NCBI GenBank assembly: GCA_028717885.1
Contig: JAQUMX010000009.1
Coordinates: forward strand, 1-54,926
Direction of reading: 5' to 3'
Length of the DNA stretch: 54,926 bases
Source: Candidatus Omnitrophota bacterium
GTDB lineage: Bacteria > Omnitrophota > Gorgyraeia > Gygaellales > Profunditerraquicolaceae
Shown here: positions 50,575 to 50,694 of the stretch, piece by piece
How positions within the stretch are numbered: position 1 is the first letter of the stretch
How the letters are laid out: each line of letters begins with the position of its first letter
Notes under the pieces: generated by a model
Database searches by the model: none
What the model was told of the DNA's origin: nothing
Seen by the model: the letters and a program-made list of their open reading frames with translations, nothing else
Position numbers and translations under genes: made by a program

Positions 50575-50585
50575 CGGCTTCTCAT

Positions 50586-50629
50586 ATAAAAAGGCGTTTA
50601 GCGCCGAAAGTTCGGCTGCTAAACGCCTT
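50586..50629 (-). terminator. Terminator-like hairpin in the pyrG leader (attenuator)
   Basis: On the minus strand AAGGCGTTTAGC (50629-50618) pairs perfectly with GCTAAACGCCTT (50602-50591). CCGAA/TTCGG pairs inside, and the stem is followed by TTT before ATATG. It lies downstream of the pyrG promoter and about a dozen bases before the pyrG ATG, so it would stop transcription inside the leader. It could also terminate gdhA read-through. Confidence 0.75.
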
Positions 50630-50666
50630 TGTTGTTTGTAAGTAGTACTTCCTCGGACTACCTTTG

Positions 50667-50694
50667 ATTATAGCACATTAACTAAGAATGTCAA
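50667..50694 (-). promoter_or_regulatory. Consensus promoter of pyrG-carA-carB
   Basis: TTGACA (50694-50689) and TATAAT (50672-50667) on the minus strand, both perfect, with a 16-base spacer. The -35 starts four bases after the gdhA stop codon. The predicted leader is about 85 bases. Confidence 0.85.

Follow-up and report, generated by a model that had tools for sequence, protein, structure and literature searches.

What signal controls CTP synthase (pyrG) in a member of the uncultured phylum Omnitrophota? In the window (the whole 54,926-nucleotide stretch of DNA that was analysed), pyrG is preceded by a promoter, a short leader and an intrinsic terminator. The pyrG gene of Bacillus subtilis has the same order of parts, and there it constitutes a CTP-sensing attenuator in which the transcript starts with GGGC and a G tract enters into pairing. 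A sequence-only reading of the window had recognized the attenuator layout of promoter, terminator and gene, and had suspected that sensing differs from the reiterative G addition of Bacillus. Comparison with relatives supports both points. On the basis of the sequence comparisons described below, the pyrG leader is very probably (probability about 0.9) an ANTAR-type dual-hexaloop antiterminator, which would be worked by a GAF-ANTAR protein encoded in the same genome.

The pyrG leader and its hairpins

The features of the locus, with the basis of each assignment, are as follows.

46229..47890, minus strand: N-terminal half of carB, 553 aa, presumed to belong to the same operon (ORF)
47883..48968, minus strand: carA, carbamoyl-phosphate synthase small subunit, presumed to belong to the same operon (ORF)
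48970..50574, minus strand: pyrG, CTP synthase, the regulated gene (534-aa ORF; orthologues in relatives are 65-85% identical)
50585..50630, minus strand: intrinsic terminator with a 13-bp stem, an A bulge and a 5-bp inner stem (50630-50590), plus U tract (folding, covariation)
50622..50633, minus strand: P2 mini-hairpin AAC[AAAGGC]GUU, hexaloop 50630-50625, A1 at 50630, G4 at 50627 (alignment)
50634..50640, minus strand: A-rich linker of 7 nt between P1 and P2 (sequence)
50641..50662, minus strand: P1 hairpin GGUAGUCC[GAGGAA]GUACUACU, hexaloop 50654-50649, G1, G4 at 50651 (folding, covariation)
50667..50694, minus strand: promoter TTGACA-16-TATAAT with extended -10 (TG) (sequence match)

Read along the minus strand, the -35 box TTGACA (50694-50689), a 16-nt spacer and the -10 box TATAAT (50672-50667) are followed by the leader, the hairpin, the U tract and the pyrG ATG at 50574. 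The promoter was described earlier as perfect. It does match at 12/12 positions, carries the extended -10 TG in addition and is the sole perfect match in the window, where 0.03 would be expected in shuffles. Transcription probably starts at about the 5' base of P1. The start region, CAAAGGUAG, contains no GGGC, exactly as had been stated. The leader folds at -35.6 kcal/mol (z = -5.8), and 0/200 shuffles are as stable. The carB half next to carA is either a split gene or a partial duplicate; elsewhere in the genome (G000:C1:108402-110681) lies a second carB-like frame of 1104 aa with two CPSase_L_D2 matches.

The terminator hairpin (50630-50590) reads AAAGGCGUUUAGC-A-GCCGA[ACUU]UCGGC-GCUAAACGCCUUU. 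It is followed by UUAUAU, with the U tract at 50592-50585, and its end lies 15 nt upstream of the pyrG ATG. The inner 5-bp stem and the T run are as the sequence-only reading gave them, while the outer stem, given as 12 bp, is one pair longer, with an A bulge between the two stems. Compensatory changes occur at most terminator pairs among 82 distinct elements.

Known ANTAR substrates consist of tandem mini-hairpins with six-base loops that carry A at position 1 and G at position 4. The base of the terminator's 5' arm supplies the second hairpin, and ANTAR binding excludes the terminator (PMC3369931). In the EutV structure, G4 is the sole base-specific contact (PMC8934654). The linkers of eut leaders measure 5-12 nt, a range that includes the 7-nt linker of the pyrG leader (PMC3369931).

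At the 5' end of the leader stands P1, a structured hairpin that is conserved and shows compensatory changes at 8/8 pairs in the same 82 distinct elements. It contains the GTAGT/ACTAC pairing that had been proposed as a competing stem. The pairing exists and its bases covary, yet no part of it overlaps the terminator, so it cannot itself compete; its predicted role is that of the recruiting hairpin. The P1 loop of the window, GAGGAA, keeps G4 and has G at position 1, a departure from the strict A1 rule. Where P1 has a closed hexaloop (n = 54), A1 is found in 40 and G4 in 43. Some relatives have G5 instead of G4, and in several pyrG and carA leaders (e.g., L020, L024) P1 is not clear.

The hairpin expected to exclude the terminator is P2, which had been missed. 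P2 is made of GGCGUU of the terminator 5' arm together with bases just upstream, so holding it excludes the terminator. The terminator arm opens with the loop and 3' strand of P2 (AAAGGCGUU), and P2 and terminator are mutually exclusive. The P2 loop of the window, AAAGGC, has both A1 and G4. Across 83 elements A1 is present in 73/83 and G4 in 83/83, figures that are inflated because the elements were detected with a model that includes the P2 loop sequence. The closing C of P2 lies outside the terminator stem. It is kept in 82/83 elements, the AA before it is nearly invariant, and this is more than a plain terminator explains. The stem of P2 has 88.9% of cells paired, and two of its pairs show AU-to-GC compensations; a compensated variant, CGGAC[AGAGGC]GUCCU, precedes gltB. 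The window's P2 stem, only 3 bp long, lacks stability by itself (+0.7 kcal/mol), which suggests that P2 depends on a protein.

The leader and its genes across Omnitrophota

Comparison of pyrG leaders in relatives had been named as a check on the earlier reading, and it shows that the leader is conserved. In the regions upstream of pyrG orthologues the same order appears in many genera while the upstream genes differ: a strong promoter, a hairpin right after the -10 box, an A-rich linker and ACAAAGGCGUUUAG...CUAAACGCC-UUUU. When 13 leaders were aligned and two helices counted, 12 pairs were changed on both sides, and 0/500 shuffles did as well. A covariance model (R1), which was built from pyrG leaders and thus favours them, matched 31/58 relatives and 101/384 sampled Omnitrophota genomes, the analysis relying on draft genomes. 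Named relatives of pyrG identify this phylum as Omnitrophota. Reverse-strand matches (e.g., window 50554-50637, plus strand) were disregarded, since the model there reads the palindromic terminator from the other strand. In relatives, a promoter with at least 10/12 matches stands directly before 44/94 elements, versus 3/94 in shuffles.

Among 80 pyrG loci, none outside Omnitrophota had the leader before pyrG. As a control, a model termed R2 was run against 38 genomes behind the non-Omnitrophota pyrG matches, and 8/38 gave matches at E up to 0.1. The best four of these comprise three plain terminators without P2 and one P2-like element (L238). Plain terminators outside Omnitrophota can reach 30-43 bits. 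An ANTAR site therefore has to be recognized by its P2 motif and not by score alone, and for the same reason no weight is put on weak matches before outer-membrane or sigma-like genes. Weak leader-like elements before predicted outer-membrane proteins were seen in several genomes (L141:402-474, L145:393-464, L149:383-557). The element at L238 (middle of the locus, minus strand) comes from a bacterium not labelled Omnitrophota and has GAAC[AAAGGU]GUUC before a terminator, with a hairpin upstream. One Omnitrophota genome has a leader-like element just 3' rather than 5' of pyrG (L157:1920-1993, plus strand), which perhaps serves the next gene of the operon. In family f6 (L025-L028) another recurring hairpin, such as GAGGCGCGCU...AGUGCGCCUC, stands upstream of pyrG in place of the leader, although several f6 genomes encode ANTAR genes.

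The element lies directly upstream of pyrG in about 55 examined places and upstream of carA in five other genomes. It also precedes purF-pyrG, where PurF was read from sequence. Other genes behind it, identified by Pfam or read from sequence, encode an ammonium transporter (amtB), glutamate synthase (gltB), glutamine synthetases I (glnA) and III, a nitrite-reductase-like protein (nirB), glutamine-dependent NAD synthase (nadE), PurL (purL), PurS (purS), P-II (glnK) and an amino-acid permease-P-II fusion. Nearly all enzymes behind the leader make, import or consume glutamine or ammonium. The elements before purL, nadE, glnK and the permease score 30-42 bits with the second model and are not strong. 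The permease gene (L139:91-1950, minus strand) has a C-terminal P-II domain fused to it and a weak leader copy upstream.

These data bear on the simplest alternative, a plain constitutive promoter with a hairpin that only ends the upstream gdhA and modestly attenuates pyrG, with no regulator. The gdhA gene is on the same strand and ends 3 nt before TTGACA, and the terminator by itself is very stable (-28.3 kcal/mol), both of which fit such a role. However, because the terminator stands between the promoter and pyrG, it must act on the pyrG transcript as well. Moreover, the leader is kept in relatives whose upstream genes differ, P1 and P2 covary, and the leader stands before a coherent set of genes. 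We regard this explanation as very improbable.

GAF-ANTAR proteins and a proposed mechanism

Genes for proteins with a GAF domain and a C-terminal ANTAR domain are found repeatedly behind the element, with intact copies in other genomes. The genome of the window has two ANTAR matches, both of them GAF-ANTAR genes. The first is complete (241 aa, G000:C12:27967-28692) and starts 8 nt after glnA (pair at L135:128-2193, i.e., G000:C12:26627-28692); in this genome the stretch immediately before glnA showed no leader. The second is cut by the contig end and has two tandem leaders upstream (L135:13098-13310, i.e., G000:C12:39597-39809), each with P2 and terminator, and one consensus-like promoter before the first. 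The two leaders before this copy point to autoregulation. An intact orthologue of it is present in L082. The ANTAR part aligns with Rv1626, EutV and NasR. As read from the alignment, it keeps the hexaloop-plugging methionine and, three residues on, the arginine, and the equivalents of EutV Tyr164 and Arg168 are F and Q in the glnA-linked copy and Y and R in the leader-linked type. ANTAR occurs in 93/101 leader-positive versus 191/283 leader-negative genomes (Fisher p = 3e-7, a value that ignores phylogeny). In the other 8/101 leader-positive genomes an ANTAR domain was not seen; these are drafts, several with weak matches.

A ligand-binding riboswitch, or a site for another RNA-binding protein of PyrR-like kind, with P1 as the receptor, would suit the 5' position and conserved structure of P1 and the pyrimidine genes behind the leader. 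But P1 is too small for a known riboswitch, the loops of P2 and, for the most part, of P1 obey the ANTAR hexaloop rule, and this leader also stands before GAF-ANTAR genes. Rfam, PyrR family included, gave no match at gathering score in the window, and a low-threshold scan of the leader region (E up to 5) gave chance matches only and no PyrR. A PyrR reading was rejected, and a receptor of either kind appears very unlikely. Less probable still, and likewise rejected, is CTP-sensed attenuation of the Bacillus pyrG type, in which Gs added reiteratively at the 5' end would pair with the terminator and prevent its folding: gene and order of parts are the same, but the start lacks GGGC, no conserved G-run start was found among the upstream regions of pyrG orthologues, predicted start regions vary freely among relatives while P1 and P2 are kept, the terminator 5' arm (AAAGGCGUUUAGC) is not a pyrimidine-rich target for a G tract, and the same leader stands before ammonium, glutamine and NAD genes.

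For the ANTAR-type antiterminator, protein binding, antitermination, signal and polarity are predicted as follows. By default, P1 would form, P2 would not persist, the terminator would fold and transcription would stop before pyrG. An active GAF-ANTAR protein would bind the P1 hexaloop and then P2 as each emerges. With P2 held, GGCGUU of the terminator 5' arm would be occupied and the terminator could not nucleate, and RNA polymerase would run on into pyrG-carA-carB'. The signal is most likely nitrogen or glutamine status, which the GAF domain may sense directly or indirectly, because the leader also stands before genes for ammonium transport, P-II, glutamine and glutamate synthase and many glutamine-dependent amidotransferases. 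CTP/UTP is thus probably the wrong signal for this leader, the regulon pointing to nitrogen or glutamine via the ANTAR protein.

Relation to known systems and meaning for Omnitrophota

The pyrG leader resembles the leaders of Enterococcus eutP/G/S/A (EutV), Klebsiella nasF (NasR) and Pseudomonas amiE (AmiR) in its two tandem hexaloop hairpins with P2 within the terminator 5' arm (PMC3369931; PMC8934654). Further likenesses to ANTAR substrates are the A1/G4 rule in the P2 loop, an ANTAR protein in the genome and nitrogen genes in the regulon. It is also like the predicted ANTAR regulons of Desulfotomaculum and others, where P-II, an ammonium transporter, glutamine and glutamate synthase and nitrite reductase are under a dual-hairpin leader (PMC3369931). 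Unlike the eut, nasF and amiE systems, the Omnitrophota targets include CTP synthase, carbamoyl-phosphate synthase, PurF, PurS, PurL and NAD synthase, and the sensor domain of the presumed regulator is GAF in place of REC or NIT. The host belongs to an uncultured phylum, and the window copy has G at position 1 of the P1 loop. The main text of PMC3369931 has 0 occurrences of pyrG. In the openly accessible papers searched, supplementary tables aside, we came across no account of pyrG, carA or purine genes under ANTAR control, or of ANTAR leaders from Omnitrophota. Both the mechanism and its nitrogen theme are already known; the set of targets is unusual.

The difference from Bacillus subtilis pyrG is that this leader has neither a GGGC start nor a G-tract target, and its antiterminator is predicted to be an internal mini-hairpin held by a protein. 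The contrast suggests separate origins for pyrG attenuators that use different sensors.

On balance, we lean towards a wider picture in which a GAF-ANTAR protein runs a phylum-wide regulon in Omnitrophota. CTP synthase, carbamoyl-phosphate synthase, PurF, PurS, PurL and NAD synthase would be treated as glutamine consumers, antitermination would switch nucleotide and NAD synthesis in concert with the uptake of ammonium and the making of glutamine, and the regulator would be autoregulated. The finding offers a concrete regulatory circuit that can be put to the test in an uncultured phylum. With it, ANTAR antitermination would reach beyond nitrogen catabolism and assimilation, into the steps of pyrimidine, purine and NAD synthesis that depend on glutamine. 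If the phylum-wide regulon is true, CTP synthase would be controlled in these bacteria by nitrogen status and not by CTP.
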